Assembly: GCF_003008515.1 (NCBI RefSeq)
Contig: NZ_CP027668.1
Location: forward strand, 434,001-498,000
Direction: 5' to 3'
DNA: 64,000 nucleotides
Origin: Phreatobacter cathodiphilus
GTDB lineage: Bacteria > Pseudomonadota > Alphaproteobacteria > Rhizobiales > Phreatobacteraceae
Positions 1 to 31,102 of this stretch are shown here, in pieces. Made by a program: the position numbers and the translations under genes. The stretch's first letter is position 1; every line of letters begins with the position of its first letter. The notes beneath the pieces are model-generated. The model was not told where the DNA came from. It did no database searches and worked only from the letters and a program-made list of their open reading frames with translations.

Positions 1-934
1 GGTCTTCGATGTCCGTACCGCCCCAGCCGATACCGGGATTGGCCACCTGGAAGTAGCGGCCCGGCGTCGACTTGCGTCCCCGCACGCGGATGCCGGCCTG
101 CCGCATGTCCAGCACCTTGCCCGCCTGGTGCTCGGTCAGCACGCCGGTGATGTGGTCGTCGACGACGATGACCTCGTCGACATGGCCGAGCCACTGCTTG
201 GCGAAGATGCCGACGGTCGCCGAGCCGCAGCCCACCCGCATCCGCTGCTCGGGCTTGCCGTCGACGATCGGTGCCTGGTTCGCCGCCACCACCACCTCGT
301 GGCCGCCGTCGATCACCATGGTCACCGGTTCGCCGGCGCAGAGCTTGAGCATGGTGTCGCAGGTGACGTTGCCCTCCTTCTTGGAGCCGCCGGTGAGGTG
401 GCGCACGCCGCCGATGGAGAGCATCTGGCTGCCGTACTCGGCCGTCGTCACGTGGCCGACCTGCTCGCCGCCGACGCGGATGGGCGCGGCCTCCGGGCCG
501 AGGTGCCGGTCGGTGTCGATCTTCACCTTGACGCCGCAATAGCTGAAGATGCCCTCGGTCACGACGGTCACCGTGTCGACGCCCTCGTGAACCGCCGAGA
601 CGATGAAGGGCGCCGGCTTGTAGTCGGGATAGGTGGTGCCGGCGCCGATGGCGGTGACGAAGGTGCGGGAGGGATCCAGCACCTGGCCGTCCCAGTCGTT
701 CTTGCCGAACTCCACCAGCCTGCCGCCCTCCTCTACGGCCCTGGCCAGCAGCACGACCGGGTCGGTGCGTACGAGCTGGCCGTTCTCGTTGGCGTAGCGT
801 GAGCAGGCGCCGGAGCGCCCCGGGCGGATGCGGCACAGGACCGGGCATGCGTCGCAGCGCAGGATGCCGTCGCCTTCCGCGGCGCCGAACTTCTTCGAGC
901 GCGCCTCGAGCGAGAGATGGTCAGTGGCGGTCAT
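1..934 (-). CDS. 6-hydroxynicotinate reductase-like Fe-S protein (C-terminus cut by window edge)
   Basis: The first 311 residues are present and the frame runs off the left edge. The ATG at 934 follows AAGGAGGT with good spacing. The N-terminus has a cysteine cluster CDACPVLC (C27, C30, C34) followed by C44, as expected for an iron-sulfur site. From memory of the family this resembles proteins annotated as 6-hydroxynicotinate reductase (EC 1.3.7.1), which reduces 6-hydroxynicotinate to 1,4,5,6-tetrahydro-6-oxonicotinate using reduced ferredoxin. It lies downstream of, and codirectional with, the molybdenum hydroxylase and hydantoinase genes, which suits a reductive N-heterocycle pathway. The true substrate is inferred. 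The 250-bp upstream gap with a large inverted repeat may give it separate expression. Confidence 0.62.
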   Translation of the reverse strand, partial: MTATDHLSLEARSKKFGAAEGDGILRCDACPVLCRIRPGRSGACSRYANENGQLVRTDPVVLLARAVEEGGRLVEFGKNDWDGQVLDPSRTFVTAIGAGTTYPDYKPAPFIVSAVHEGVDTVTVVTEGIFSYCGVKVKIDTDRHLGPEAAPIRVGGEQVGHVTTAEYGSQMLSIGGVRHLTGGSKKEGNVTCDTMLKLCAGEPVTMVIDGGHEVVVAANQAPIVDGKPEQRMRVGCGSATVGIFAKQWLGHVDEVIVVDDHITGVLTEHQAGKVLDMRQAGIRVRGRKSTPGRYFQVANPGIGWGGTDIED

Positions 935-971
935 GGCGACCTCCTTGAAATTGTGCGCTCTGCAACAGCCA

Positions 972-1139
972 AGTGCGTCCTTCGAGGCTCGCTGCGCTCG
1001 CACCTCAGGATGAGGGAGGCTTGAGACCTGTAGCAGCCGTCGCCCCAGGTGCGCGGCGCTCCGACTGGCAGCCTCTGTTGCCATGCACCCGACCTCCTCA
1101 TCCTGAGGTGCGAGCGCAGCGAGCCTCGAAGGACGCACT
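972..1139. repeat. Perfect 44-bp inverted repeat with 80-bp spacer
   Basis: Arms 972-1015 and 1096-1139 are exact reverse complements. Each arm contains an internal palindromic core (GGCTCGCTGCGCTCGCACC). The element fills the gap between the hydroxylase stop and the reductase start. A second, less perfect copy occurs at 21077-21272, so this is a dispersed family resembling the short palindromic repeats common in Bradyrhizobium and relatives. As RNA it would form a very stable stem in the operon transcript. Confidence 0.9.
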
Positions 1140-1184
1140 CGGGTCGTGCAGGGTGACCGGTCAAGCAATGAGGCAGCCGCACGC

Positions 1185-3941
1185 TCATTCCGCCGCCTCC
1201 CTCTGGCCCTGCATCGCAGCCCACAGCTTGTGCGGCAGGACCGGCACCTCGGTCATGCGCACGCCGACCGCGTGGCGGATGGCGCCGAGGATGGCCGGGG
1301 CGGTCGCGACGAGCGCGGGCTCGCCGACGCCCTTGGCCCCATACGGCCCCTCCGGCTCGGTGTCCTCGACGAGGTGGATGGTGATCTCCGGCATGTCGCC
1401 GGCCGTGGGAACGAGGTAGTCGTGCAGGTTCTCTGTGCGGCCCGGGAGATATTCCTCCATCAGCGCCAGGCCCAGCCCCTGCGCGATGCCGCCGTGGATC
1501 TGGCCCTCGGTCAGTGTCGGGTTGATGGCGCGGCCCACGTCGTGGGCGGCGACGATGCGCGTCACCTTCACCGTGCCGAGCAGGCGGTCCACCTCCACCT
1601 CGGCCACCTGCGCGGCGAAGCCATAGGTGGCGTAGGGGATGCCCTGGCCTTTGGCGTCGAGGGCGGTGGTCGGCGGGTCGTATTCGCCGTCGCCCATGAG
1701 CACGATGCCCGCCGCGTCGGCGGCGAGGCCCGAGAGGTCGATGGTGCGGCTCGCCTCGCCGTCCTCCACGGTCAGCCTGTCACCGACGAGCGCGAGCCGC
1801 GCGGCGGGGCCGGCATTGGCCAGCGCCAGGATCTTCGCGCGGAGATCGGCGCCCGCGAGTTTGGCGGCGTTCCCTGAGACGAAGGTCTGGCGCGAGGCGG
1901 AGGTCTTGCCGGCGTCGAAGGTGCGGTCGGTGTCGCCGATGACGAAGCCGAAGGCCTGGGGCGGCAGTCCCAGCGCATCCGCCGCGATCTGCAGCAGGAC
2001 GGTGGACGATCCCTGGCCGATGTCGACGGCGCCGTTGAGGAAGGTCAGCCGCCCGTCGCGGGTGAGCGTGATCCGCATCTTCGACGGGTTGGACATGGAG
2101 GTGTTGCCGCAGCCGTACCACATGCAGGCGACGCCTACGCCGCGCGCGGTGCGGCCACCTTTCGCATTGTGCGCGGCGGCTTCCGCCATCAGCCGGTCGT
2201 AGTCCGCCTTCACCGCGTCGAGGCAGTCCGGCAGTCCGGCGGAGGCGTGGAGGATCTGCCCGGTCGGGGTCCTGTCGCCGTGGCCGATGGCGTTGACGCG
2301 GCGGATCTGCCAGCGGTCGAGCCCGAGGCGCTCCGCGAGATCGTCGATCAGCGTCTCGCCGGCGATCGCCGCCTGCGGCACGCCGAAGCCGCGGAAGGCG
2401 CCCGCCGGCACCTCGTTGGTGTGGACGGCGCGGGTGGCGTTGCGCACATGCGGCACCTTGTAGGGGCCGGTTGCGTGGACCGGCACGCGGTTCGCCACCG
2501 TCGGCCCCCAGGAGGCATAGGCACCCGTGTTGAAGTCGCCGGTCATCTCGTAGGCGGTGAAGCGGCCCTCCCGGTCCGCCGACATCCGCGCCTGGATCTT
2601 CGAAGGGTGACGCTTGGTGGTGGAGGCCATGCTCTCGGTGCGCGAATAGACGATGCGCACTGGCTTTTTGGTCAGCCAGGCGGCAACCGCGATCAGCGGT
2701 TGGATGGAGACGTCGAGCTTGCCGCCGAAACCGCCGCCGCAGGCGGTCGGGATGATGCGGACCTGGGCCATCGGCACGCCGACGACGCGGGCGACCTCCT
2801 CCTGATCCATCACCGCGGCCTGGGTGCAGGCGGTGACTTCAATTCGATCTCCGACCCTAACCGCGTAACCCGCCTCGGGCTCGATATAGGCGTGCTCGAC
2901 GAAGCCGGTGCGGAAACGGCCCTCGGCGGTGGCGGCGCCGAGCTTGTGGCCCTCGGCGACGTCGCCGGTCTCGAGATAGCCGCGGGTCAGCACGTTGTCG
3001 GGAATGTTGGCGTGGAGCGGCGTCGCGCCCGCGGCCAGCGCCGCCTCGACGCCGATCAGCGCTGGCTCCACCTGCCAGGTGATCGGCAGGTCGGCATCGG
3101 CGATGCCCTCCACCGCCCCGCGCGTGCCGACGAGCGCAAGGATCGCCTCGCCCCGATAGCGCACGAAGCCGGGCGCCAGCACCGGCTGGTCCTTGATGGT
3201 TGGGAAGATGCCGAAGGCATTGGCGCCGGGAATGTCCGAGGCGGTGAGGATGGCTTCCAGCCCCGGATGAGCGGCCTTCACCGCGGCGAGATCGCCGAGG
3301 GTGAAGCGCGCCCGCGCATGGGGCGAGCGCACGGCGCGCAGCCACAGCGCGCCCTCCGGTGCGTAATCCGCGCCGAAACGGTCGGTGCCCTGCACCTTCG
3401 GCAGCCCGTCGGCGCGGGCGATGCGGGTACCGACCGCGCAGCCCGCCTCCGCCACGGGTGCATAGGCGTTGGCGCCGCGCGCCACCGCGTCGATGGCCTC
3501 GATGATCTTGGCATAGCCGGTGCAGCGGCAGAGCACGCCGCCGATGCCGTCCTCGATCTCGCCGCGGCCGGGGGAAGGGTTGCGAGTGAGGAGATCCGCC
3601 GCCGCCATGATCATGCCCGGCGTGCAGATGCCGCACTGGGCCGCGCCGGCGGCCAGGAAGGCCGCGCGCAGCCGGTCGATGAGAGGGTCCGAGGCCTCGA
3701 TGGTGGTGATGGCGCGGCCCTCCGCCTGAGCCGTGGCGACGAGGCAGGCGCAGACCTGCTCGCCGTCCATCAGCACGGTGCAGGCGCCGCAGTCGCCGGC
3801 GTCGCAGCCGATCTTGGTGCCGGTGAGCCCCAGGCCTTCGCGCAGCGTGTCGGCGAGGCTGGCGAAGGGCTCGGCCTGAACCGGATGGGTGGTTCCGTTG
3901 ACGGTGAGCCTGACCGGCGTGGCAGCGGGACGGTCGAGCAT
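1185..3941 (-). CDS. Molybdenum hydroxylase, fused 2Fe-2S and molybdopterin subunits (xanthine dehydrogenase family)
   Basis: A 918-residue fusion. Residues 1-160 form the small subunit, with a plant-type 2Fe-2S site (C46, C51, C54, C66) and the second cluster motifs QCGICTPGM and CRCTGY. Residues from about 165 form the large molybdopterin subunit with GGGFGGK, AFRGFG and DIGQGS motifs and the catalytic glutamate in KGVGEPA near residue 874. The family hydroxylates N-heterocycles or aldehydes using water as oxygen donor. The FAD subunit is encoded immediately upstream and coupled by a TGATG overlap at 3939-3943. Given the neighbours, a nicotinate-like or other azaarene substrate is plausible; xanthine or aldehyde oxidation is the alternative. 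No XdhC-type maturation gene is visible. Confidence 0.9.
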   Translation of the reverse strand: MLDRPAATPVRLTVNGTTHPVQAEPFASLADTLREGLGLTGTKIGCDAGDCGACTVLMDGEQVCACLVATAQAEGRAITTIEASDPLIDRLRAAFLAAGAAQCGICTPGMIMAAADLLTRNPSPGRGEIEDGIGGVLCRCTGYAKIIEAIDAVARGANAYAPVAEAGCAVGTRIARADGLPKVQGTDRFGADYAPEGALWLRAVRSPHARARFTLGDLAAVKAAHPGLEAILTASDIPGANAFGIFPTIKDQPVLAPGFVRYRGEAILALVGTRGAVEGIADADLPITWQVEPALIGVEAALAAGATPLHANIPDNVLTRGYLETGDVAEGHKLGAATAEGRFRTGFVEHAYIEPEAGYAVRVGDRIEVTACTQAAVMDQEEVARVVGVPMAQVRIIPTACGGGFGGKLDVSIQPLIAVAAWLTKKPVRIVYSRTESMASTTKRHPSKIQARMSADREGRFTAYEMTGDFNTGAYASWGPTVANRVPVHATGPYKVPHVRNATRAVHTNEVPAGAFRGFGVPQAAIAGETLIDDLAERLGLDRWQIRRVNAIGHGDRTPTGQILHASAGLPDCLDAVKADYDRLMAEAAAHNAKGGRTARGVGVACMWYGCGNTSMSNPSKMRITLTRDGRLTFLNGAVDIGQGSSTVLLQIAADALGLPPQAFGFVIGDTDRTFDAGKTSASRQTFVSGNAAKLAGADLRAKILALANAGPAARLALVGDRLTVEDGEASRTIDLSGLAADAAGIVLMGDGEYDPPTTALDAKGQGIPYATYGFAAQVAEVEVDRLLGTVKVTRIVAAHDVGRAINPTLTEGQIHGGIAQGLGLALMEEYLPGRTENLHDYLVPTAGDMPEITIHLVEDTEPEGPYGAKGVGEPALVATAPAILGAIRHAVGVRMTEVPVLPHKLWAAMQGQREAAE

Positions 3942-4804
3942 CAGGCGGCCCTCCGGGCGGCGGGGGAGGCGAGGTCGGCGAGGGCGTCGCGCACCAGCGC
4001 CTCGGCCGCCGCGCGGCGATAGGCGGCGGTGGCGCGCACGTCGTCGATGGGCTGCAAGGCGGCGAGGTGGTCGCTGATCACGAGCCCTGCGGCTTCAGCG
4101 AGGGGCCGGCCGACGAGCGCCACCTCCAGCGCCGTCAGCCGCTGTGCCACGGCCGAGCAGGCGCCGACCGCGATGCGTGCGGCGGTGATCCTGCCGGCCT
4201 CGTCCGTGGCGATCACGGCGGCGACCATGGCGATGGAGATGACGAGATATTTGCGCGCGCCGAGCTTGAGGAAGGTCGAGCGCGCGCCGGCGAGCTTCGG
4301 CACGATGAGCGCCGTGACGATCTCGTCGGGCGCCAGCGCCGTCGTGCGATAGCCGGTCGAGAAGGCCTGAACGGGGAGGGCGCGCGTGCCAGCCTTGCCG
4401 ACGACCTCAACCATGGCGTCGAGCGCCATGAGGTTCGGGATGCCGTCGCCGGCCGGCGAGGCGGTGACGAGATTGCCCGCGAGCGTGCCGAGGTTCTGCA
4501 CCTGCAGGCCGCCGACCTCCCGCGCCGCGCGGCGCCAGCCGTCGAAGAGCGGCGGCAGGTCGGCGCGGGCAAGGTCGCTCCAGGTGGTGAGCGCGCCGAG
4601 GCGGACGTGATCGGCCTCCTCGGCGATGCCCTTCAGGCCGGGCACGGCGGTGATGTCGAGGATCGGCTTGTGGGCCGGGTCGCCCCAGGCCCGCCGGGCG
4701 GTGCGGACGGGATAGACGTCGGTGCCGCCGGCGAGCACGGTCACGTCTTTCCCGGCCTTGATGGCGATGGCCTCGGCGAGGCTGGTCGGACGAAAATAGC
4801 TCAT
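3941..4804 (-). CDS. FAD-binding subunit of the molybdenum hydroxylase
   Basis: This 287-residue protein has the FAD_binding_5/CO-dehydrogenase flavoprotein fold. It shows AGGTDVYP near the N-terminus and a NLGTLAGNLVTASPAGD flavin-contact segment. It would pass electrons from the Fe-S clusters of the fused partner to an acceptor. I chose the ATG at 4804 (MSYFRPTS) because it overlaps the hyuB stop as TGATG; an in-frame upstream start would add only six residues. Its own stop overlaps the next ATG in the same way, so the three genes are translationally coupled. Confidence 0.9.
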   Translation of the reverse strand: MSYFRPTSLAEAIAIKAGKDVTVLAGGTDVYPVRTARRAWGDPAHKPILDITAVPGLKGIAEEADHVRLGALTTWSDLARADLPPLFDGWRRAAREVGGLQVQNLGTLAGNLVTASPAGDGIPNLMALDAMVEVVGKAGTRALPVQAFSTGYRTTALAPDEIVTALIVPKLAGARSTFLKLGARKYLVISIAMVAAVIATDEAGRITAARIAVGACSAVAQRLTALEVALVGRPLAEAAGLVISDHLAALQPIDDVRATAAYRRAAAEALVRDALADLASPAARRAA

Positions 4805-6507
4805 CAGCCCCTCCGTCCCCACAGGGTCTCGGCCTCGGCCGCGGTGTAGTAGCCACGCGCCACGTCGCGGGCGACGGCGGCGGGATCGCGCTTCGCCGGG
4901 TCGCCGTAGCCGCCGCCGCCGGGCGTCATCACCTCGACCCGGTCGCCGGCGCGGATGCGCAAGCCCTGGTCCTTGGACAGGTGCTCGGGAATGGTCGTCT
5001 CGGTCCCGCGGTGGATCTTCACGACGTTCGGCGCGCCGTCCTTGCCGCCGAGCACGCCCGGCGGGCCGAAGCGGCCGTGGTCCATGACGAAGGAGGCGCG
5101 CGCCTCGCCGCGCAGCAGCTCCACCTCGTAGTGCACGCCGAAGCCGCCGCGCGCCTTGCCGGCGCCGCCCGAGCCCTCGCGCAGGGCGAAGCGGCGGAAC
5201 AGCACGGGATAATACTGCTCCATCACCTCCACCGGCGCGGTCTTGGAGATGCCGATGGTCGAGCAGCCGTTGGTCAGGCCGTCATGGGCGGCGTTGCCGC
5301 CATAGCCGCCGCCGGTGATCTGGTACATGACATAGCCGGCCTTTTTCGCCGGGTCGAAGCCGCCCAGGGCGAAATTGCCGGAGGTCCCCGCCGGCGCCGC
5401 CGTCACCTTGTCGGGAATGGCCTGGACGAGGGCGAGGAACACCGCCTCGGCAATGCGCTGCGACACCTCCGCCGCGCAGCCCGAGACGGGGCGCGGATAT
5501 TGCGCGTCGAGGAAAGTGCCTTCGGGTTTGAGGACGGTCAGCGGCTCGAAGGCGCCGGAATTGATCGGCACGTCCGGGAAGATGTGCTTCACGCCGAGAT
5601 AGACCGAGGAGCAGGTGGTGGCGAAGACCGAGTTCATCGGCCCCTGGCAGGGCGGGGACGACTCGGAGAAATCGAAGGTCATCGTCTCGCCGGCCTTGGT
5701 GACGGTGAGGGCGATCCGCAGCGGCTCGTTCACGACGCCGTCGGAATCGACGAAGCTTTCCGAGCGGTAGACGCCGTCGGGAATGGCCCGGATCTCCGCC
5801 CGCATCCGCTCGGCCGAGCGGGCGCGGATCTGGCGGATCGCCTCGTCCAGAGTCGCGGTTCCGTATTTCGCCACGAGGTCCATCAGTCGGGTTTCGCCCA
5901 CCAGCAGCGCCGCCGCCTGGGCCTTGATGTCGCCGATGCGCTGGTCGGCGATGCGGATGTTGGAGGAGATGATCGCGAAGATCTCCTGGTCCATCGCGCC
6001 GCGCTTGAACAGCTTCACCGGCGGCAGGCGGAGGCCCTCCTGCTCGACCTCGGTGGCATGGGCCGAGAAGCCGCCCGGCACCATGCCGCCGATGTCCGGC
6101 CAGTGGCCGGTGTTCTGCAGCCAGCAGAACAGCGCGCCGTCGACGAAGACCGGCTTGGCGAAGCGCACGTCCATGAGGTGCGTGCCGCCGAGATAGGGGT
6201 CGTTGACGATGTAGATGTCGCCGGGCTCCGGCTTGCCCGCCTTGCCCTCGCCGATCAGGCGGATGATGTGGCCGGTCGAGTGCTGCATCGTGCCGACGAA
6301 GACCGGCAGGCCGAATTCGCCCTGCGAAATCAGCGCGCCGGTGTCGCGGTCGTAGATGCCGTCGGCGCGGTCGTCGGCTTCCGCGATGACGGGCGAGAAG
6401 GCCGAGCGCGAGAAGGCGATGTCCATCTCGTTGCAGACCTGCTGCAGGCCGGCCTGGATGACCGCGAGGGTGAGGGCGTCGATGACGGTGGGGGTGTGGA
6501 GGGTCAT
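4804..6507 (-). CDS. hyuB: Hydantoinase B / oxoprolinase family protein
   Basis: At 567 residues this matches the usual HyuB length. It has typical sequence such as NDPYLGGTHLMDV and a Gly-rich C-terminus ending in TPGGGGYGDP. HyuA-HyuB pairs perform ATP-dependent hydrolysis of cyclic amides (hydantoins, 5-oxoproline, carbapenam-like lactams). The ATG at 6507 follows GGAGG. The partner hyuA lies 181 bp upstream, across a palindromic repeat. Next to a ring hydroxylase and a ring reductase, the likely job is opening a lactam produced from an N-heterocycle; this role is inference. Confidence 0.9.
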   Translation of the reverse strand: MTLHTPTVIDALTLAVIQAGLQQVCNEMDIAFSRSAFSPVIAEADDRADGIYDRDTGALISQGEFGLPVFVGTMQHSTGHIIRLIGEGKAGKPEPGDIYIVNDPYLGGTHLMDVRFAKPVFVDGALFCWLQNTGHWPDIGGMVPGGFSAHATEVEQEGLRLPPVKLFKRGAMDQEIFAIISSNIRIADQRIGDIKAQAAALLVGETRLMDLVAKYGTATLDEAIRQIRARSAERMRAEIRAIPDGVYRSESFVDSDGVVNEPLRIALTVTKAGETMTFDFSESSPPCQGPMNSVFATTCSSVYLGVKHIFPDVPINSGAFEPLTVLKPEGTFLDAQYPRPVSGCAAEVSQRIAEAVFLALVQAIPDKVTAAPAGTSGNFALGGFDPAKKAGYVMYQITGGGYGGNAAHDGLTNGCSTIGISKTAPVEVMEQYYPVLFRRFALREGSGGAGKARGGFGVHYEVELLRGEARASFVMDHGRFGPPGVLGGKDGAPNVVKIHRGTETTIPEHLSKDQGLRIRAGDRVEVMTPGGGGYGDPAKRDPAAVARDVARGYYTAAEAETLWGRRG

Positions 6508-6542
6508 GCGGCCTCCTGCTGCGTTCCGAGAGCCAAGCGCAT

Positions 6543-6655
6543 TTCCCCTCCCCCCGCTTGCGGAGGGGAGGGGTCAGGGGTGGGGGGAGAAGTTTGTGGA
6601 AGCTCGTATGCCCCCCACCCTAACCCTCCCCACCGCTGCGCGGGGGGAGGGGAAT
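6543..6655. repeat. Imperfect GC-rich inverted repeat between hyuA and hyuB
   Basis: Two imperfect complementary arms of the form CCCCTCC...GGAGGGGAGGGG and CCCTCCCC...GGGGAGGGG flank about 30 bases. This belongs to the same general class as the elements at 8791-8910 and 15911-16068. It fills the gap between hyuA and hyuB. Confidence 0.75.
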
Positions 6656-6688
6656 GGAGAGGACGGCGCGAACGTGGGAAGGTGCTGC

Positions 6689-8728
6689 TCATACCTTCAC
6701 CCTGAGGTTCCCGATGGCATCCACCGTCGCGACGGCACCCGGCTCGATCACCGTCGTGGCGTCGATCTGCTGGATGACGGCCGGGCCGGTGACCACGGCG
6801 CCGATGGGCAGCGCGTCGCGCGAATAGACCTTGGCGTCCCACCAGCGTCCGTCGGCATGGACCTGCCGCTCGCCGATGACGGCGCCCGCGACGTCCGCCG
6901 CCCGCGCGGCGGGATCGAGCAGGGCGGAGAGCGGGAAGGCGCGCCGCCGGCCGATGACCGAGGTCACGAGATTGACCAGCACGGCGCGGATCTCCGGCAG
7001 CCGCACCTGGAAGCGGTGGAAATAGGCCGCCTCGAAGGCCGCCTGGATCTCCTCGCGCGTCACGTCGGGCGAGGCGAGCGGCACGCGGATGAGATGGGTC
7101 TGGCCGCGGAACTGCATGTCGGCGCCGTGGATGACCAGCGTCTCCTCGATCTCCGCCTTCTCCTCCTCGACCACGGCGAGGGCGCTGTCGCGTTGCGCCG
7201 TCATCAGCCGCTTGACCTCGCCCATGTCGACCTGGTCGAGCGGCCTGTTCACGGTGTTGACGCGGTCCTGGCGCAGGTCCGCGACGAGGCATCCCAGCGC
7301 ATTGGTGAGACCGGGGCGCGCCGGCACCAGCACCTCGGGAATTCCGAGTTCGCGGGCGAGCGCCACGGCATGGAGGGGGCCTGCGCCGCCGAAGGCGAAG
7401 AGCACGAAGTCGCGGGGGTCGTAGCCCCGTGACAGCGACACCATGCGGATGGCACCGGACATATGGACGTTGCCGAGGCGGATGACGGCGGCTGCCGCCT
7501 CCTCGACGCTCATGCCCAGCGGCTGGGCCAGATCCCGCTCGAAGACAGAGCGGATGTCGGCGAGCGACACCTTGCCCTGCACCGCGGTGAGCCGGTCGGG
7601 GTCGAGGCGGCCGAGGATGAGGTTGGCGTCGGTGATGGTCGGCCGCGTGCCGCCGCGCCCATAGCAGATCGGCCCGGGCTCCGAGCCGGCCGAATGCGGG
7701 CCGACCTGCAGCATCCCCGCCGCGTTCACCGAGGCGATGGAGCCGCCGCCGGCACCGACCGTCCGCACGTCCACCATGGGCAGGTGGATCGGCAGGCCGT
7801 AATCGATGGTCAGCTCCGCCGAGACCTCCGGCACGCCGCCATGGATCAGCGCCACGTCGGTGGAGGTGCCGCCCATGTCGTAGGTGATGGCGTTGGTGAG
7901 CCCGGACTGGGCGAGCGTCGCCGCCGCCGCCATGACGCCCGAGGCGGGGCCGGACATCACCGTCTTCGCCGCCTCGCGCGCCACCAGCGTCGCCGGCACC
8001 GTGCCGCCGTTGCCGTTCATGACGAGAAGGTCGCGGGAAAAGCCCTTGGCGGAGAGGTCGGCCTGCAGCCGCTGCACATAGCGGTCGAGGATTGGCTGCA
8101 CGGCGGCGTTCACGCTCGCCGTCGTGCCGCGCTCGTACTCGCGATATTCCGACAGGAGTTCGTGGCCGAGGGTGACATAGCCGTTCGGCCAGACGCTGCG
8201 GACGATCTCGCCGGCGCGCAGCTCATGCTCCGGATTGGCGTAGGAATGCAGGAAATGGACGACGATGGCCTCGCAGCCGGCGGCGGCCAGCGCCTCCGCC
8301 TCGCGCCTGACGGCGGCTTCGTCGAGAGGGGTGACGACCTCTCCCAGCGCATTCATGCGCTCGGCCACCTCGCGGCGAAAGGGCCGCTCGATCAGCGGCT
8401 CGAAGGTGCCGGTCATGCCATAGGCGCGCGGGCGGGTGCGGCGCCCGAGTTCGAGAATGTCGCGGAAGCCCTCGGTGGTGATGAGGCCGACCTTGGCGAC
8501 CTTGCGCTCCAGCACCGCATTGGTGGTGGCCGTGGTGCCGTGAATGATGAGGTCGAGGTCGGCCGGGCCGACCCCCGCCGCCTCGATGGCCTTCACCACG
8601 CCCACCGCCTGGTTGGCGATGCTGGTCGGCACCTTGGCGAGCTTCACGGTCACGCTCGTCCCCTCCTGCTCGGTCAGGAGCAGGTCGGTGAAGGTGCCTC
8701 CAACGTCGATGCCGGCAACGCGCCTCAA
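6689..8728 (-). CDS. hyuA: Hydantoinase A / 5-oxoprolinase-type ATPase subunit
   Basis: A 679-residue protein with the ASKHA-type phosphate loop GIDVGGTFTD near residue 6 and a central TYDMGGTSTDVALI segment. It is the ATP-using subunit partnering HyuB in cyclic amide opening. The start codon is TTG at 8728; AAGGA about seven bases upstream supports it and no better start lies nearby. An operator-like palindrome lies 14 bases upstream (8742-8759). It follows livF with a 207-bp gap containing a perfect 27-bp inverted repeat. Confidence 0.92.
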   Translation of the reverse strand: MRRVAGIDVGGTFTDLLLTEQEGTSVTVKLAKVPTSIANQAVGVVKAIEAAGVGPADLDLIIHGTTATTNAVLERKVAKVGLITTEGFRDILELGRRTRPRAYGMTGTFEPLIERPFRREVAERMNALGEVVTPLDEAAVRREAEALAAAGCEAIVVHFLHSYANPEHELRAGEIVRSVWPNGYVTLGHELLSEYREYERGTTASVNAAVQPILDRYVQRLQADLSAKGFSRDLLVMNGNGGTVPATLVAREAAKTVMSGPASGVMAAAATLAQSGLTNAITYDMGGTSTDVALIHGGVPEVSAELTIDYGLPIHLPMVDVRTVGAGGGSIASVNAAGMLQVGPHSAGSEPGPICYGRGGTRPTITDANLILGRLDPDRLTAVQGKVSLADIRSVFERDLAQPLGMSVEEAAAAVIRLGNVHMSGAIRMVSLSRGYDPRDFVLFAFGGAGPLHAVALARELGIPEVLVPARPGLTNALGCLVADLRQDRVNTVNRPLDQVDMGEVKRLMTAQRDSALAVVEEEKAEIEETLVIHGADMQFRGQTHLIRVPLASPDVTREEIQAAFEAAYFHRFQVRLPEIRAVLVNLVTSVIGRRRAFPLSALLDPAARAADVAGAVIGERQVHADGRWWDAKVYSRDALPIGAVVTGPAVIQQIDATTVIEPGAVATVDAIGNLRVKV

Positions 8729-8741
8729 GGTCTCGTCCTTT

Positions 8742-8759
8742 TCATTCGCCTACGAACGG
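8742..8759 (-). promoter_or_regulatory. Operator-like palindrome upstream of hyuA
   Basis: TCATTCGC-CT-ACGAACGG is an imperfect dyad with 8-bp half-sites and a 2-bp spacer, 14 bases before the hyuA start. It is a variant of the sites at 13811-13828 (livK) and 30277-30294 (fpr). The TNGTNNACNA-like core resembles operators of GntR-type repressors, but the regulator is unknown. Confidence 0.5.
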
Positions 8760-8790
8760 TGCGGTCGGGACCGCACCATCCGGGTAGGCT

Positions 8791-8910
8791 CACCCTCCCC
8801 TGGAGGGGGAGGGTCGGCGCCGAGAGGCGCCGGGGTGGGGTGAGGACGGCGGGGTCACCCCACCCCGTCCTCGCTTCGCTCGTCCGACCCTCCCCCTCCA
8901 GGGGAGGGTG
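8791..8910. repeat. Perfect 27-bp inverted repeat between livF and hyuA
   Basis: Arms 8791-8817 and 8884-8910 are exact reverse complements. Each arm is itself near-palindromic (ACCCTCCCCTGGAGGGGG). It sits between the transporter and enzyme parts of the operon and could attenuate transcription or stabilise the upstream mRNA. Confidence 0.85.
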
Positions 8911-8935
8911 AAAGCGGCGGACCGGCCGGCTGCGC

Positions 8936-9664
8936 TCACACGCTGAGATAGGCTTCCCTGATCTCGTCGTTGGCCTCGAGGTCCTCCGTCGTCCCCTCGT
9001 AGCGAATGGCGCCCTTCTCGATGACATAGGCGCGGTCCGACACGGCGGAGGCGAAGTAGAGGTTCTGCTCGGAGAGCAGCACCGCGATGCCCTGTGCCTT
9101 CATGGCGAGCACGGCATCGGCCATCTGCTCGACGATGACGGGGGCGAGGCCCTCCGACGGCTCGTCCAGCAGCACGGCGTGCGGGTTGCCCATCAGCGTG
9201 CGGGCTATGGTCAGCATCTGCTGTTCGCCGCCCGACATGGCCGAGGCGCGGCGGCCCTTCATCTCCGCGAGGTTGGGGAAGATGGCGAAGAGCCTGTCCA
9301 GCGACCAGGGCTCCTTGCCGGGGCTGCCTGCCGCCGACTTCCGGCCGACCTCGAGGTTCTCGTACACGGTGAGATCGGTGAAGATGCGCCGGTCCTCGGG
9401 CACATAGCCGAGGCCGAGCCGGGCGATGCGGTAGGGCTGCCAGCCGGTGACGTCCTGGCCCTCGAAGGTGACGGTGCCGGCCTGCGACGGCACGACGCCC
9501 ATGATCGCCTTCAGCGTCGTCGACTTGCCCGCGCCGTTGCGGCCCATCAGCGCCACGACCTCGCCGGCGCGCAGCGTCACGTCGACGCCGAACAGCACCT
9601 GCGCATGGCCATAGGCGGCGGCGATGCCGCGCGTCTCCAAGATGGTGGTGGAGGCCGTCGACAT
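8936..9664 (-). CDS. livF: Branched-chain amino acid-type ABC transporter ATPase LivF
   Basis: A 242-residue ATPase with Walker A GRNGAGKST, signature MSGGEQQML and Walker B AVLLDEPSEGLAP, diagnostic of LivF. The start at 9664 overlaps the livG stop as TGATG. It energises HAAT-family import with LivG. Such systems in alphaproteobacteria carry amino acids but also amides, urea and aromatic or heterocyclic acids. Operon context suggests the substrate feeds the downstream hydroxylase, reductase and hydantoinase. Confidence 0.95.
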   Translation of the reverse strand: MSTASTTILETRGIAAAYGHAQVLFGVDVTLRAGEVVALMGRNGAGKSTTLKAIMGVVPSQAGTVTFEGQDVTGWQPYRIARLGLGYVPEDRRIFTDLTVYENLEVGRKSAAGSPGKEPWSLDRLFAIFPNLAEMKGRRASAMSGGEQQMLTIARTLMGNPHAVLLDEPSEGLAPVIVEQMADAVLAMKAQGIAVLLSEQNLYFASAVSDRAYVIEKGAIRYEGTTEDLEANDEIREAYLSV

Positions 9665-10455
9665 CAGTGCACCTCCGCCGCCTGCCGGCGTGCCTTGAGG
9701 GCCGCCTGCGATCCGGCCTCGCCGAGATAGACCTGCTTCACCCGCTGGTTCGACCGCACCTCGTCCGGCGTCCCCGTGGCGATGATCTCGCCGCGCACCA
9801 GCACGAGGATGCGGTCGGCGTGACCGAAGACCGAGTCCATGTCGTGCTCGGTGAAGAGCACGCCGATGCCGTGGGCGCGGGCGATGTCGGCGGTGAGCTG
9901 CATCAGAGCGGTGCGCTCCTTCGGCGCCATGCCGGCGGTCGGCTCGTCCATGAGGAGGAGCTTGGGTTCCGAGGCGAGCGCGATGGCGAGCTCGACCCGC
10001 TTCACGTCGCCATAGGCGAGCTCGTTCACCGGCCGGTCCGCCATGTCGGCCATGCCGACGCGGGCGAGGAAGCCGATGGCGGCCTCGCGGTGGAGGCGCG
10101 TGGCGGCGCCGGTGACCGAGCGGGTCTGCCCGTGGTGGGAGATCAGCGCCATCTGCACGTTCTCCACCACGCTCATCGACACGAAGGTCTGGGCGATCTG
10201 GAAGGTGCGTCCGACGCCGAGGCGCCAGATCTCGCGCGGCGGCTTGCCGGTGATGTCCTGCCCCGCCAGCACGATGGTGCCGGCATCGGGCTTCAGCTGA
10301 CCGCCGACCATGTTGAAGGTGGTCGACTTGCCCGCGCCGTTCGGCCCGATGATGGCGAGCATCTCGCCGGCCGCCAGGCTGAAGGTGACGTTCTTGCCGG
10401 CGGTGACGCCGCCGAAGCGCTTCTCGAGGCCGGTGACGGCGAGCAGCGTGGTCAT
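9664..10455 (-). CDS. livG: Branched-chain amino acid-type ABC transporter ATPase LivG
   Basis: A 263-residue ATPase with Walker A IGPNGAGKST, the LivG-type GVGRTFQIAQTF segment and LLLMDEPTAGMAP. The signature motif reads LAYGDVKRVE, with an unusual YGDVK in place of the common YGxQR or SGGQ. The start at 10455 overlaps the permease stop as TGATG. It forms the ATPase dimer with LivF. Confidence 0.94.
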   Translation of the reverse strand: MTTLLAVTGLEKRFGGVTAGKNVTFSLAAGEMLAIIGPNGAGKSTTFNMVGGQLKPDAGTIVLAGQDITGKPPREIWRLGVGRTFQIAQTFVSMSVVENVQMALISHHGQTRSVTGAATRLHREAAIGFLARVGMADMADRPVNELAYGDVKRVELAIALASEPKLLLMDEPTAGMAPKERTALMQLTADIARAHGIGVLFTEHDMDSVFGHADRILVLVRGEIIATGTPDEVRSNQRVKQVYLGEAGSQAALKARRQAAEVH

Positions 10456-12353
10456 CACGCGGCCTCCTTCGCGACGACCGGCGCGGCCGCGCCACGCCCC
10501 ATCCGCTCGCGCAGGCCCTCGATGGCGCCGACGACGCCCTTCGGGAAGACCAGCACGATGGCGATGATCGAGACGCCGAGGAAGAAGCGCCAGAAGTCGG
10601 TGAGCGGCATGAAGAAGTCCTTCACCGAGTGGAAGACGGCGGTACCGACGAGCGGCCCCATCACCGTCTGGATGCCGCCGGTGAGGATCATCATCAGGAA
10701 GTCGATGGACATGGCGATGGAGATCATCGTCGGGTCGATCGAGCCCTTGGAGAAGGAATAGAGGCCGCCGGCGAGGCCCGCCGCGGCGCCCGCGACGATG
10801 AAGGCGAGCCAGCGATGCGTCTTCACGTCGATGCCGATGGCATCCGCCCGGTTGGCGCTGTCGCGGGCGGCGCGCAGCGTGTAGCCGAAGGGCGTGTAGA
10901 AGAGATGCCGCAGCGCCACGATGGAGGCGAGCGCCAGCACCGCGACGACGTAGAAATAGACCTCGCGCGAGGCCGCCCAGCGCGACGGCCAGACGCCGAC
11001 GACGCCGTTGTCGCCGCCCGTCACCTCCACCCACTGGAAGCAGATCGCATAGGTGATCTGGGCGAAGGCCAGCGTCAGCATGGCGAGGTAGATGCCAGAG
11101 AGGCGCACGATGAAATAGCCGAACAGCGCGGCGGCGAGGCCGCCGGCGATGGGAGCCGCGACCAGCGCCAGCTCCATCGGCGCCTTCATCGGCCCGGTGA
11201 CGAGGAGGCCCGCCGCATAGGCGCCGACGCCGAAATAGGCGGCATGGCCGAAGGAGACGATGCCGCCGTTGCCGATCAGGAGGTTGAGCGAGAAAGCGGC
11301 GAGCGCGAAGACCATGATCTCGATGCCGACCTTCACCTTGTAGGTGTCGCCGACGATGGGGATCAGCAGGAGCGCGATGGTGAGCGCGATCCAGACGACG
11401 GTTTCGGTGCGCGAGAAGCCCTTGAGGTTGAGAATGCCCTCGGGGAGCACGGCGCGGCCCGAGGCGACCTCCGGCTTGCCCATCAGGCCCCAGGGCTTGA
11501 CCACCAGCACAACCGCCATGAGCAGGAAGACGAGGACGAGCGTGATCTTCGGGAAGATGAGGATGCCGAAGGCCTCCAGCATCTTGATGATCAGCGCGGC
11601 GATGAAGGCACCGGGCACCGAGCCCATGCCGCCGATGACGGTGACGACGAAGGCCTCGGTGATGATGGAGAGGTCCATGCCCGTATTGGCCGGCAGGCGC
11701 GGGATCTGCAGCGCGCCGCCGAGGCCGGCGAGGAAGGCGCCGAGAAACAGCGTGCCGGTGAACAGCATGGCCTGGTTGACGCCGAGTGCGCCGACCATCT
11801 CGCGGTCCTGCGTGGCGGCGCGGATGAGCACGCCGAAACGCGTCTTGTGCATGATGAGGAGCAGGGCCCCGAGCACCGTCGGCCCGACGAAGATGAGGAA
11901 CATCTCATAGGCGGGGAAACGCTGGCCGAGGATCTCGATGCCGTGGCGCATGCCCGGCGCGCGCGGGCCGGTGATGTCGACGGGACCCCAGATCTTCAGC
12001 ACCACGTCCTGGACGATGAGCACGACGCCGAAGGTGGCGAGCAGTTGGAACAGCTCCGGCACCCGGTAGATGCGGCGCAGCAGCACCACCTCCATGATGA
12101 CGCCGAGAATGCCCACCACCGTCGCCGAGGCGAGGACGCCGATGAAGAACAGCGTCGGCGAGCGGTCGAACTCCAAAAGCCAGGGCACGATGGTCACCGC
12201 CATATAGGCGCCGAGCATGTAGAACGAGCCGTGGGCGAAGTTCACGATCCGCGTCACGCCGAAGACGATGGTCAGTCCCGAGGCGATGACGAACAGCGCC
12301 GAGGCGCTGGCCAATCCCGACAGGGCCTGGATGACGAGGAAGGAGAGATCCAT
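10455..12353 (-). CDS. Fused LivH-LivM ABC transporter permease
   Basis: This 632-residue protein carries both permeases in one chain. Residues 1 to about 290 are LivH-like (IASGLTIVFGVTRIVNFAHG, IGGMGSVPGAFI) and about 320 to 632 are LivM-like (NLLIGNGGIVSFGHAAYFGV, GGDNGVVG). A 30-residue polar linker joins them after VVKPWGLMGKPE. I chose the ATG at 12353 (MDLSFLVIQ); upstream in-frame sequence is arginine- and proline-rich and unlike a membrane protein. LivH and LivM are usually separate genes, though fusions are known. The coding frame is continuous with no sign of frameshift. Confidence 0.92.
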   Translation of the reverse strand: MDLSFLVIQALSGLASASALFVIASGLTIVFGVTRIVNFAHGSFYMLGAYMAVTIVPWLLEFDRSPTLFFIGVLASATVVGILGVIMEVVLLRRIYRVPELFQLLATFGVVLIVQDVVLKIWGPVDITGPRAPGMRHGIEILGQRFPAYEMFLIFVGPTVLGALLLIMHKTRFGVLIRAATQDREMVGALGVNQAMLFTGTLFLGAFLAGLGGALQIPRLPANTGMDLSIITEAFVVTVIGGMGSVPGAFIAALIIKMLEAFGILIFPKITLVLVFLLMAVVLVVKPWGLMGKPEVASGRAVLPEGILNLKGFSRTETVVWIALTIALLLIPIVGDTYKVKVGIEIMVFALAAFSLNLLIGNGGIVSFGHAAYFGVGAYAAGLLVTGPMKAPMELALVAAPIAGGLAAALFGYFIVRLSGIYLAMLTLAFAQITYAICFQWVEVTGGDNGVVGVWPSRWAASREVYFYVVAVLALASIVALRHLFYTPFGYTLRAARDSANRADAIGIDVKTHRWLAFIVAGAAAGLAGGLYSFSKGSIDPTMISIAMSIDFLMMILTGGIQTVMGPLVGTAVFHSVKDFFMPLTDFWRFFLGVSIIAIVLVFPKGVVGAIEGLRERMGRGAAAPVVAKEAA

Positions 12354-12460
12354 CGGCGGGGGGCTCTCGGCGCAAGCGGTCAGAACGGGGTCGCGGCAAG
12401 TCGCGGCCCGTCGGGGGAGATGAACCGGGCGGACGCCCGGCAGGTGCATGCGAATGGGAC

Positions 12461-12485
12461 GCCCTCTCCCGCCAGGGGAGAGGGC
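12461..12485 (-). terminator. Intercistronic hairpin between receptor and permease genes
   Basis: GCCCTCTCCC-GCCA-GGGGAGAGGGC forms an almost perfect 10-bp GC stem, 15 bases past the livK stop, with no T-run after it. Such hairpins after receptor genes often protect the 5' mRNA and lower permease expression, so I read it as partial termination or stabilisation rather than the operon end. Confidence 0.6.
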
Positions 12486-12499
12486 TCGTACTGCGATCC

Positions 12500-13726
12500 T
12501 CAGATCTTGCGCGCGGCGCGGACCTCGGCCTCGGGGAACATGACGTCGGCGCCGTCGACGTAGCGGAAGTTCTTCATCGTCGGCAGCTTGCCCTTCAGCG
12601 TCGTCTCGCCGACCCAGGCGCCGAGCGTCGACTGCTGGTCGATGCCGCGCATGGTGACGGGACCGCAGATGGTCTGCGTCGTCAGGCCCTTGAAGGCCTC
12701 GATCATCGCCGCCGTCTCGGTCGACTTCGCCTTGTTGAACATGTCGCGGATCATGAAGGGCACGACGTAGCCGAGCACCGAACCGAGGCGCGGCGTGTCG
12801 TTGAACTTCGCCTTGTAGGCGGTGACGAAGGCCTGGTGGCCATGGGTCTCCACCTGCTCCGGCGGATAGCCGGTGACGATCCAGCCGTCCGGCGTCTCGT
12901 CGCCGAGGGGCAGGAGATATTCCGGCTCGCCGGTGAGGAGGCTGACCACCGTGCGGCGCTCGAACAGGCCGCGGGTGTTGCCCTCGCGCACGAAGGCGGT
13001 GAGGTCGGCGCCGAACAGCACGTTGAAGATGCCGTCGGGGCGGCTCTGGGCCAGGGCGCCGACGGTGGCGCCGGCGTCGACGCGGCCGAGCGCCGGGAAC
13101 TGCTCGGCGACCACCTCGAAGCCCGGAACCGCCGCGCCCATCAGGCGCTTGAAGGCGGCGACGGCCGACTGGCCGTATTCGTAGTTGGGCGCCACCACGG
13201 CCCAGCGCTTCACGCCCTTCCCCTTGGCGGCGTCGACCAGCATCTTGGTCTGCATGTAGGTGCCGGGGCGGACGCGGAACGTATAGGGATTGCCGCTGCC
13301 CATGGTGAGCGCGTCGGTGAGCGGCTCGGTGGCGAGGTAGAGCACCTTCTTCTGGTTGGCGAAGTCGGCGAGGGCGAGGCCGACGTTCGACAGGAAGGCG
13401 CCGGCGATGAACGAGACGTTCTCGCGGGTCATCAGCTCTTCGGCGACGCGCACCGCATCGCCCGGCGTCGAGCCGTCGTCGCGGAAGACGATCTCAAGCG
13501 GGCGACCGCCGAGGCCCGCCAGGCCGCCGGCGGCGTTGATCTGCTCGACGGCGAGCTGCATGCCGTTGCGATAGGGAACGGCGAAGGCGGCCATGCGGCT
13601 GTAGGAATTGAGCTCGCCGACCTTCACCGGGGCGCCCTGGGCGGAGCCGGTTCCGGTGGTCAGGGCGACACCGGTGGCCGCGAGGCCCCCGACGACGGTG
13701 CGGCGCGACAGATCGAGCTTCGACAT
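12500..13726 (-). CDS. ABC transporter substrate-binding protein, LivK/amide family
   Basis: The 408-residue receptor has a Tat-like leader (SRRTVVGGLAATGVAL) ending near AQG-AP and a periplasmic-binding type I fold (KVGELNSYSRMA, QLAVEQINAAGGL). The ATG at 13726 has GGGGAGA six bases upstream; a TTG two codons earlier is less well placed. It opens the operon and defines the imported ligand, which sequence alone cannot name. The upstream region holds a sigma70-like promoter overlapped by a palindromic operator. Confidence 0.92.
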   Translation of the reverse strand: MSKLDLSRRTVVGGLAATGVALTTGTGSAQGAPVKVGELNSYSRMAAFAVPYRNGMQLAVEQINAAGGLAGLGGRPLEIVFRDDGSTPGDAVRVAEELMTRENVSFIAGAFLSNVGLALADFANQKKVLYLATEPLTDALTMGSGNPYTFRVRPGTYMQTKMLVDAAKGKGVKRWAVVAPNYEYGQSAVAAFKRLMGAAVPGFEVVAEQFPALGRVDAGATVGALAQSRPDGIFNVLFGADLTAFVREGNTRGLFERRTVVSLLTGEPEYLLPLGDETPDGWIVTGYPPEQVETHGHQAFVTAYKAKFNDTPRLGSVLGYVVPFMIRDMFNKAKSTETAAMIEAFKGLTTQTICGPVTMRGIDQQSTLGAWVGETTLKGKLPTMKNFRYVDGADVMFPEAEVRAARKI

Positions 13727-13810
13727 CAACAATCTCCCCTCAGATGCGGGCGGCGGGGACCGCCCGTTCCACCTCTGACCGAAGCTTCCGTTGTTTTGTT
13801 CTTCGGAAGA

Positions 13811-13852
13811 TCATTCGTAAGCGAACGATACCGCGTCCCGGACCGCTGGCAA
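13811..13852 (-). promoter_or_regulatory. Predicted promoter and operator of the heterocycle operon
   Basis: On the minus strand TTGCCA (13847-13852) is followed after 16 bases by TATCGT (13825-13830). The dyad TCATTCGT-AA-GCGAACGA (13811-13828, plus-strand reading) overlaps the -10 and start region, the usual position for a repressor site. The fpr promoter has the same layout: TTGCC(T), a 16-bp spacer ending in GCGG, TATCAT and a near-identical dyad. Confidence 0.6.
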
Positions 13853-13940: not shown

Positions 13941-14948
13941 TTAGGAGAAGGTCGGACGCAGTCCGCCCACCGTGATCCCGTTCCAGTTCTTCATGACGGG
14001 CGTGACGAAGCGGCGGAATTTGGCAGCCTCCGCCTCGTTCATGGGCAGAAGTTTCGCGATGAGCGTGGCCATCATGACCTCGCTGGCGCGCGGGGCACCG
14101 TCGACGCATTTCAGCGCGATTCCGAGGCCTTGGTCGGGCAGTGCCGCGCAGAACACGCCCTCGGCGCCCGTCTTGACGAAGACACGCTGGCCGAGAAGCT
14201 CCATCACGTCGGTGCAGAACCGGCCGGAGCCCGCCACCAAGAAGGGCTCGGCGGCGCAGGCGGCGCGCAGCCGCACGAAGGCCTTGGCCCGCTCCGGCCC
14301 GACCCCCTCGCCGGTGGCGAGTTTGGCGAAGCCCTGGGCGAGCTTGGTCAGCGGCACGGCGAAGGTCGGAATCGAGCAGCCGTCGGTGCCCACCGCCGTA
14401 TCGGCGTCGAGCCTGTGGCCGGTGACCTCGCCCACCGCCTCGGCGACGAAGCGCTGCACCTTGTGATCGATGCCGACATAGCCACGGGTGTCGATGTCCT
14501 GCGAGCAGGCGAAGCACAGGAAGCCGGAATGCTTGCCCGAGCAGTTGTTGTGCAGGGCGGAGGGCTTGCCGCCGGAGCGGGCGAGGGCGTGGGTCGCCGC
14601 CGCTCCCGAGGGCCAGTGCGCCCCGCATTCCAGATCGGCCTCGCCGAGCCCGGCCCTGGCCAGCATGCCGGCGGCCGTCGCCACGTGGCGCTCCTCGCCG
14701 GAGTGGGACGAGCAGGCGAGCGCCAGTTCGGCATTGCCGAAACCGAAGCGATCGGCGGCCCCGCTCTCCACCAGCGGCAGCGCCTGCAGCGCCTTGATGG
14801 CCGAGCGCGGATAGATGGCGCGGTCGATGTCGCCGAGGGAGAAGACGATCCGGCCGGCGGCATCCGAGACGACGGCGGCGCCGCGGTGGACGCATTCGAC
14901 GCTGTCGCCGCGCAGGACTTCGACGAGGATGGGATCGCTCAGCGACAT
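13941..14948 (-). CDS. L-asparaginase, Rhizobium etli ReAV-type (asparaginase II family)
   Basis: A 335-residue protein of the class represented by inducible R. etli asparaginase, which uses a beta-lactamase-like fold and hydrolyses asparagine to aspartate and ammonium. Recalled ReAV catalytic positions map here with a shift of one: SxxK S49/K52, S81, metal-binding C136 and K139 within NCSGKHSG. The ATG at 14948 follows AGGGAG. It is codirectional with the downstream catabolic operon but separated by a hairpin and a promoter, so it is probably independent. Confidence 0.9.
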   Translation of the reverse strand: MSLSDPILVEVLRGDSVECVHRGAAVVSDAAGRIVFSLGDIDRAIYPRSAIKALQALPLVESGAADRFGFGNAELALACSSHSGEERHVATAAGMLARAGLGEADLECGAHWPSGAAATHALARSGGKPSALHNNCSGKHSGFLCFACSQDIDTRGYVGIDHKVQRFVAEAVGEVTGHRLDADTAVGTDGCSIPTFAVPLTKLAQGFAKLATGEGVGPERAKAFVRLRAACAAEPFLVAGSGRFCTDVMELLGQRVFVKTGAEGVFCAALPDQGLGIALKCVDGAPRASEVMMATLIAKLLPMNEAEAAKFRRFVTPVMKNWNGITVGGLRPTFS

Positions 14949-30328: not shown

Positions 30329-31102
30329 ATGTCGAACCTGAATTCCGAGCGCGTCCTCGATGTCCGCCACTACACGGACCGGCTCTTCTCCTTCAAGACG
30401 ACCCGCGACCCGTCATTCCGCTTCGTCAACGGCCAGTTCACGATGATCGGGCTTGAGATCGACGGCCGGCCGCTGCTGCGCGCCTATTCCATCGTCTCCT
30501 CCAACTACGAGGACAACCTCGAGTTCTTCTCCATCAAGGTGCCCGACGGGCCACTGACCAAGCACCTGCAGAACATCAAGGTCGGCGATCGCATCCTGGT
30601 CGGCCGCAAGCCGGTCGGCACGCTCGTCCAGGACGCGCTGCTGCCGGGCAAGAATCTCTATCTCTGCGGGACGGGGACGGGCCTCGCCCCCTTCATCAGC
30701 GTGGTGAAGGACCCGGAGGTCTATGACCGCTTCGACAACATCGTCCTCATCCACGGCACGCGCTTCATCGCCGAGCAGGCCTATGGCGACTATGTCTCGA
30801 AGGAGCTTCCCGACGACGAGCTCATCGGCGAGCTGGTCCGTGCCAAGCTGAAATACTATCCCACCGTCACCCGCGAGCCCTATGTCCACAACGGCCGCAT
30901 CACCGAGCTGCTCGACACCGGCCGGATTCAGGCCGAGTTCGGCCTGCCGCCGCTCGACAAGGCCAATGACCGGGTGATGATCTGCGGCTCGCCCGCCTTC
31001 CTGAAGGACATGGTCGACATGCTCGTCGCCCGCGGTTTCGAGGAGGGGGCGATCTCCGGCCCCGGCCATTTCGTCATCGAAAAGGCCTTCGTCGAGAAGT
31101 GA
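30329..31102 (+). CDS. fpr: Ferredoxin-NADP(+) reductase, bacterial subclass I
   Basis: A 257-residue flavoprotein with FAD motif RAYSIVSSNYED, NADP-binding GTGTGLAPFISV and C-terminal HFVIEKAFVEK, as in Azotobacter and Rhodobacter FPR. It moves electrons between NADPH and ferredoxin or flavodoxin. I chose the ATG at 30329 (MSNLNSERV); the upstream in-frame stretch covers the operator. Sharing an operator with the operon that ends in a putative ferredoxin-dependent reductase suggests it supplies reduced ferredoxin there. Confidence 0.93.
   Translation: MSNLNSERVLDVRHYTDRLFSFKTTRDPSFRFVNGQFTMIGLEIDGRPLLRAYSIVSSNYEDNLEFFSIKVPDGPLTKHLQNIKVGDRILVGRKPVGTLVQDALLPGKNLYLCGTGTGLAPFISVVKDPEVYDRFDNIVLIHGTRFIAEQAYGDYVSKELPDDELIGELVRAKLKYYPTVTREPYVHNGRITELLDTGRIQAEFGLPPLDKANDRVMICGSPAFLKDMVDMLVARGFEEGAISGPGHFVIEKAFVEK

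Follow-up and report, generated by a model that had tools for sequence, protein, structure and literature searches.

The window, a 64,000-nucleotide stretch of Phreatobacter cathodiphilus DNA covering positions 434001-498000 of a single-contig 4.49 Mb genome, begins within a minus-strand operon that joins a Liv-type ABC transporter, the subunits HyuA and HyuB (HyuAB), a molybdenum hydroxylase and a putative 6-hydroxynicotinate reductase (HNR). Domain searches bore out the protein classes, from LivK to the molybdenum hydroxylase, that a preliminary description had placed on this strand, and the TGATG couplings it pointed out are present as overlaps at four junctions (LivHM/LivG, LivG/LivF, HyuB/FAD and FAD/Mo). 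Its 6-hydroxynicotinate reductase-like protein holds in part: relatives are annotated as such, but the gene is cut by the window edge and the operon continues past it, the HNR 3' end overlapping a MarR gene that is followed by UPF0280 and AA_synth (PF06684). Features outside the window are given in coordinates of L007; here, L-numbers denote HNR loci (fetched stretches) and G-numbers genomes of this analysis.

12500-13726, minus strand: LivK-type periplasmic binding protein, ATG at 13726 (Pfam Peripla_BP_6, 8e-64)
10455-12353, minus strand: fused LivH-LivM permease (LivHM), one open reading frame (ORF) with two BPD_transp_2 stretches (1.2e-66)
9664-10455, minus strand: LivG ATPase (ABC_tran 5.9e-31, BCA_ABC_TP_C 3.1e-10), TGATG junction with LivHM
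8936-9664, minus strand: LivF ATPase (ABC_tran 2.2e-30), TGATG junction with LivG
6689-8728, minus strand: HyuA, putative ATP-site subunit of the proposed lactamase, TTG start (Hydantoinase_A 2.7e-89)
4804-6507, minus strand: HyuB, putative metal-site subunit of the proposed lactamase (Hydantoinase_B 1.4e-162)
3941-4804, minus strand: FAD subunit of the hydroxylase (FAD_binding_5 1.6e-39, CO_deh_flav_C), TGATG junction with HyuB
1185-3941, minus strand: fused [2Fe-2S] and molybdopterin hydroxylase subunit, 918 aa (Pfam MoCoBD_2 6.3e-73, MoCoBD_1 2e-71, Fer2_2 7.1e-23, Fer2 2e-5), TGATG junction with the FAD subunit
935-1184, no strand: intergenic spacer separating the Mo subunit from HNR and containing a dispersed repeat, read by an over-extended ORF as residues 1-73
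1-934, minus strand: putative HNR, 5' part; the remainder lies at contig 433426-434000, outside the window
L007 12974-13429, outside the window, after HNR: MarR regulator
L007 12105-12971, minus strand, outside the window: UPF0280
L007 11527-12108, outside the window: AA_synth (PF06684)

The HNR ATG lies at window position 934, preceded by AAGGAGGTCGCC with a good ribosome-binding site ahead of the start, and the gene ends 575 bases beyond the window edge. Matches to residues 1-73 place many scattered copies of the spacer repeat in genomes of the genus. The enzyme name 6-hydroxynicotinate reductase appears in PMC3511419 and PMC12472160; its use here is a prediction drawn from PMC3511419 and from plasmid homologues so annotated by RefSeq or the depositors, which are 59-67% identical to the window HNR. 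Sequence, profile and family searches placed HNR in no Pfam family above cut-off and matched it to no PDB entry, GCV_T_C matching weakly in 42/42 HNR members (best 1.8e-4); the preliminary description had allowed for a different Fe-S enzyme emerging from a domain search, and none did. The closest named HNR loci belong to a Rhizobiales metagenome-assembled genome (MAG; 97% identical) and to Phreatobacter MAGs (90-96%). Because HNR is found in 12/12 searched genomes of the genus and 72/297 of the order with its neighbours conserved, the cluster is not a chance assembly, and the conservation that the preliminary description had proposed to check holds across HNR loci.

Comparison with known systems centres on ring opening. 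The nicotinate pathway of Eubacterium barkeri, reportedly described by Alhapel in 2006, resembles the one proposed here in its molybdenum hydroxylase, its HNR and a reductive route via 1,4,5,6-tetrahydro-6-oxonicotinate (THON). It differs in the opener: in E. barkeri, THON is reported to be opened by a bifunctional enamidase (PMC9304392), whereas the complete genome behind the window gave no enamidase match at E<=1e-5 and has HyuAB in the operon.

One scan of genome contigs with HNR provided 74 named HNR loci, which we labelled by an orthologue of HyuA/HyuB (>50% identity) or of enamidase (Ena; >45%). Ena marked 15 and HyuAB 29 of them, none carried both, and 30 carried neither. The Ena query ORF matches the solved enamidase structure 2vun (3.6e-106), which we take to be the E. 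barkeri enzyme. Genome-wide, 27 of the 29 HyuAB genomes lack Ena at E<=1e-20 and the other two hold only homologues of 39-44% identity, while the best-scoring HyuA was at most 53% identical in the 15 Ena genomes versus at least 59% in the 14 Hyu genomes searched. Among the 21 genomes searched behind loci with neither label, 11 hold Ena of 57-83% identity and 10 do not. Three clusters of one family, f18 (L138, L143, L149), have neither Ena nor HyuA of at least 60% identity, no AA_synth in the stretch and a divergent thiamine-diphosphate enzyme gene; this enzyme, encoded by the sole conserved unmatched ORF identified there, was considered as a third opener and rejected.

The same near-exclusion emerged when 297 genomes sampled from the order (Hyphomicrobiales) were scored, with HyuA counted at >=60% and Ena at >=61% identity. 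Of 72 HNR-positive genomes, 26 hold HyuA only, 38 Ena only, three both and five neither (Fisher p 1.6e-11); leaving out the window's own genus, these figures become 15, 38, three and four (p 4.6e-8). HyuA was found in 29/72 HNR-positive versus 1/225 HNR-negative genomes. These genomes are not independent of each other, and the swap was therefore examined on trees.

On a carefully built 103-row HNR tree (62 Ena and 41 Hyu) we counted nine opener changes, eight of them forced by supported branches, with 9-10 across bootstrap trees and a mean of 32 when labels were shuffled; a quick 129-row HNR tree has 11. On the hydroxylase tree (73 rows) there are seven changes, five of them forced. The opener has thus been swapped repeatedly between HyuAB and enamidase in HNR clusters, and the suggestion in the preliminary description that HyuAB stands in enamidase's place agrees with these nine switches, with 0/74 loci and with 3/72 genomes having both. 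Some records are counted twice among the 141 loci scored next, as also in the UPF0280, AA_synth, ferredoxin-NADP reductase, HNR-identity and residue-invariance counts below. FAD-Mo hydroxylase genes occur at 36 Ena, 41 Hyu, three double and 20 unlabelled loci, NicAB-type genes at 11 Ena loci and one Hyu locus, and neither type at 19 Ena, eight Hyu and two unlabelled loci. The sole Hyu locus of NicAB type is that of Neorhizobium NCHU2750 (L093), with genes deposited as nicA, nicB, hnr, hyuA and hyuB. Three HNR-HyuAB clusters, two of them in named Methylobacterium records (L021, L092 and L099), have no molybdenum hydroxylase within the fetched stretch. Retention of hydroxylase and reductase through a change of opener is what one would predict for two openers that take the same product.

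The resemblance of HyuAB to lactamases extends to its active sites. Against the PDB, HyuA matched N-methylhydantoinase best (1.3e-139) and then caprolactamase (6yra_A, 2.7e-119), HyuB matched caprolactamase best (6yra_B, 8.7e-79) and then N-methylhydantoinase, and carboxylases scored lower for both; HyuA also matched the caprolactamase alpha model (7.1e-147), under the model cut-off. Mutation of CapB residues D41, H99, D102 or H124 is reported to kill caprolactamase (PMC8453981, Table 4; the abstract prints D101). By alignment these correspond to D46, H110, D113 and H135 of the window HyuB, and D11 and D295 of the CapA ATP site to D8 and D284 of HyuA. Wherever HNR-linked loci cover them, the HyuB Zn-site residues do not vary (36-38 of 39 loci), nor do those of the HyuA ATP site (38-41 of 42). 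The caprolactamase CapAB (PDB 6YRA; PMC8453981) and the window pair thus share two subunits, the Pfam families, four metal-site residues and two ATP-site residues; they differ in that window HyuAB falls below the NCBIfam cut-offs, sits in another operon and has a presumed six-membered substrate. OplAB and N-methylhydantoinase likewise open lactams with ATP, and OplAB is reported to hydrolyse the six-membered delta-valerolactam (PMC11033972), so that a six-membered lactam is a fitting substrate for HyuAB. Unlike these enzymes, window HyuAB is encoded in an HNR operon, and the operon genes identified give no hint of a pathway for oxoproline or hydantoin.

Near-exclusion with enamidase, repeated swaps and retained catalytic residues together make it probable that HyuAB acts on THON in enamidase's stead, as an ATP-dependent lactamase. 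For the operon as a whole, we consider degradation of nicotinate, or a close pyridine carboxylate, with HyuAB at enamidase's place, to be the likely function suggested by the sequences. A nicotinate-like compound would be imported by the Liv-type ABC transporter, and the FAD/Fe-S/Mo hydroxylase would add a 6-hydroxyl group from water. HNR would then reduce 6-hydroxynicotinate to the cyclic enamide-lactam THON with low-potential electrons, HyuA-HyuB would spend ATP to open the lactam, in the way caprolactamase and 5-oxoprolinase open theirs, and the resulting aminomethylene-glutarate would hydrolyse to 2-formylglutarate and ammonia.

Several observations weigh against this assignment. HNR is tied to the E. 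barkeri enzyme through annotated homologues and the SG-6C orthologue of PMC3511419, and a mediocre AlphaFold model (pLDDT 71) of the 97% identical L008 protein gave no PDB fold match at E<=0.001. HyuA and HyuB score 490.6 and 324.6 bits against a 1000-bit curated caprolactamase cut-off (NF050156/NF050157). Three of the 72 HNR-positive genomes carry both openers (G172, G278, G315) and five carry neither (G003, G107, G139, G231, G313), Ena is present in 7/225 HNR-negative genomes, and in part of group f23 g62 HyuA and HNR are far apart or on separate contigs (G143, G208, G278, G315, G331). Finally, a need for ATP is not obvious, as enamidase opens THON without it; its use may push the reaction forward when substrate is scarce, or the lactam may be a somewhat different one.

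In a rival explanation, HyuAB clusters degrade some other heterocycle, a substituted pyridone or a different pyridine carboxylate, that on reduction gives a lactam so stable that enamidase could not open it; HNR and hydroxylase would there have shifted in specificity. ATP coupling would suit a stable lactam, caprolactam hydrolysis being reported as strongly disfavoured (PMC8453981); moreover, the HNRs closest to that of the window are mostly in HyuAB loci (up to 96% identity for Hyu, at most 79% for Ena), and eight Hyu loci, L021, L092 and L099 among them, have no hydroxylase in the fetched stretch. However, the identity ranges overlap widely (59-96% for Hyu versus 61-79% for Ena), and opener labels are interleaved on both the HNR tree (nine switches) and the hydroxylase tree (seven). 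In the records, nicA/nicB are the deposited names of genes that accompany hnr and hyuAB in Neorhizobium L093, and nicR is that of the MarR gene found with hnr and HyuAB in Pleomorphomonas L096. We therefore regard this explanation as rather unlikely. Much less probable still is that an unlinked enzyme opens the ring, HyuAB serving as an ATP-dependent carboxylase or at a later intermediate: the same Pfam families do hold acetone and acetophenone carboxylase subunits, yet the best matches are lactamases and hydantoinases, the caprolactamase Zn site is intact in HyuB, and a carboxylase leaves the near-exclusion of enamidase unexplained. It is scarcely credible that the exclusion simply reflects shared ancestry, with two cluster types inherited in two lineages and neither opener tied to HNR function, for although labels are far more clustered than shuffled ones (9 changes against a mean of 32), at least eight supported switches on the HNR tree, five on the hydroxylase tree and HyuA in just 1/225 HNR-negative genomes contradict it.

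Set against the literature, then, the reading of HyuAB as enamidase's replacement has one new component. Bradyrhizobiaceae strain SG-6C is reported to mineralise nicotinate, to use nicotinate and 6-hydroxynicotinate as sole carbon source and to encode an HNR orthologue 42% identical to the E. barkeri enzyme, and reductive nicotinate clusters, a type already known among Alphaproteobacteria, have been described from Azorhizobium and Bradyrhizobiaceae (PMC3511419). Like the window operon, the Azorhizobium/SG-6C cluster has HNR in a conserved setting, an ABC transporter and two conserved proteins of unknown function (PMC3511419), which may be UPF0280 and AA_synth. In group f35 g35 (L122-L125, L128, L129, L132, L133), likely Bradyrhizobium as judged by layout only, NicB-NicA is divergent from HNR, UPF0280, AA_synth, LivKHMGF and MarR, with Ena or a ferredoxin-NADP reductase following where the fetched stretch reaches; such clusters differ from the window operon in having NicB-NicA and no HyuAB. 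The claim of the preliminary description that this enzyme combination was undescribed accordingly stands for the HyuAB swap, of which no account was found, and not for reductive nicotinate clusters as such (PMC3511419). No description joining hydantoinase with enamidase or nicotinate catabolism was found in the open-licence literature, oxoprolinase not having been searched in that combination. The reductive nicotinate pathway is known already; the ring-opener swap is the new part.

Among the partner genes, UPF0280 is nearly constant: in 117/123 loci with room it follows HNR in the same orientation by no more than 2 kb, and the five genomes behind the six exceptions hold a copy elsewhere (42-58% identity). 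Modelled with AlphaFold, the L008 homologue (pLDDT 93) matches the UPF0280 structure 2o34 (DVU1097; 1e-10) and then flavin transferases of the ApbE fold, with FmnB, Ftp and ApbE matches from 1.8e-5 and TM-scores of 0.33-0.56. A conserved stretch, GRSFSLGIAD, lacks His and presumably occupies the position of the ApbE catalytic His motif. The E. barkeri HNR is said (Alhapel 2006) to carry a covalent flavin, and this makes it attractive to think of UPF0280 as a cytoplasmic maturase dedicated to HNR, attaching covalent flavin or else loading sulfur, the role suggested for its COG2122 relatives. Against this weigh the COG2122 proteins of the same family (DVU1097, MA1715), which have been connected with homocysteine synthesis and sulfide assimilation and in which the flavin-binding region of ApbE is reportedly missing (PMC5764234, PMC12068725); here the family is linked to HNR. 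A plain ApbE role, with which the fold agrees and the flavin-binding region reportedly does not (PMC5764234), is kept as speculation, and we hold the broader maturase idea to be tentative and somewhat doubtful. If true, HyuAB, HNR and UPF0280 would together form a variant of the pathway that spends ATP and has a dedicated maturase.

AA_synth genes, which we take to have a RidA-like fold, adjoin HNR or Ena, for example in L040, L078, L093 and L098. With paralogues assigned solely by which of two references gave the better hit, a first paralogue is present in 35/62 Ena versus 32/42 Hyu loci with room and a second in 45/62 versus 4/42. A role for AA_synth as enamine deaminase after HyuAB was considered and set aside, the paralogue counts showing no specificity for HyuAB. 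The four Hyu loci with the second paralogue (L093, L098, L137, L151) have HNRs near Ena rows in the quick tree, and we infer that Ena may have been replaced recently there. The MarR regulator fits a nicotinate cluster, one relative's gene being deposited as NicR. Bordetella BpsR is, we assume, likewise a MarR protein. It is reported to be controlled by 6-hydroxynicotinic acid (PMC6837509). A ferredoxin-NADP reductase at least 50% identical to one beside a Comamonadaceae HNR occurs in 24/141 loci (14 Ena, nine Hyu, one both) and in 0/8 Phreatobacter-like loci. The window holds a gene for such an enzyme about 30 kb from HNR (30329-31099, plus strand; 61% identical to the Comamonadaceae one), a candidate electron donor to HNR.

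Just upstream of LivK and on the same strand lies an Asparaginase_II family gene (13941-14948, minus strand), and farther upstream of the operon one for a SelO-family protein adenylyltransferase (17753-19180, minus strand). Downstream, a BrnT-like toxin gene with a helix-turn-helix partner (L007 10851-11472, minus strand) separates AA_synth from a class III CoA-transferase gene. The downstream CaiB CoA-transferase was considered for glutarate activation and rejected, scoring 232.8 against a cut-off of 750 bits with the succinate-glutarate CoA-transferase model; among the 74 named HNR loci, copies at least 84% identical are confined to eight Phreatobacter-like ones.

Replacement of enamidase by HyuAB would mean that unrelated enzymes, a metal-only amidohydrolase and an ATP-driven two-subunit lactamase, have been exchanged repeatedly at a single step in the breakdown of vitamin B3. 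It would give a testable substrate to HyuA/HyuB proteins so far named just hydantoinase or oxoprolinase, and would place UPF0280 and AA_synth in a pathway in which their functions can be tested. It also raises the question of why many lineages would pay ATP where others do without.

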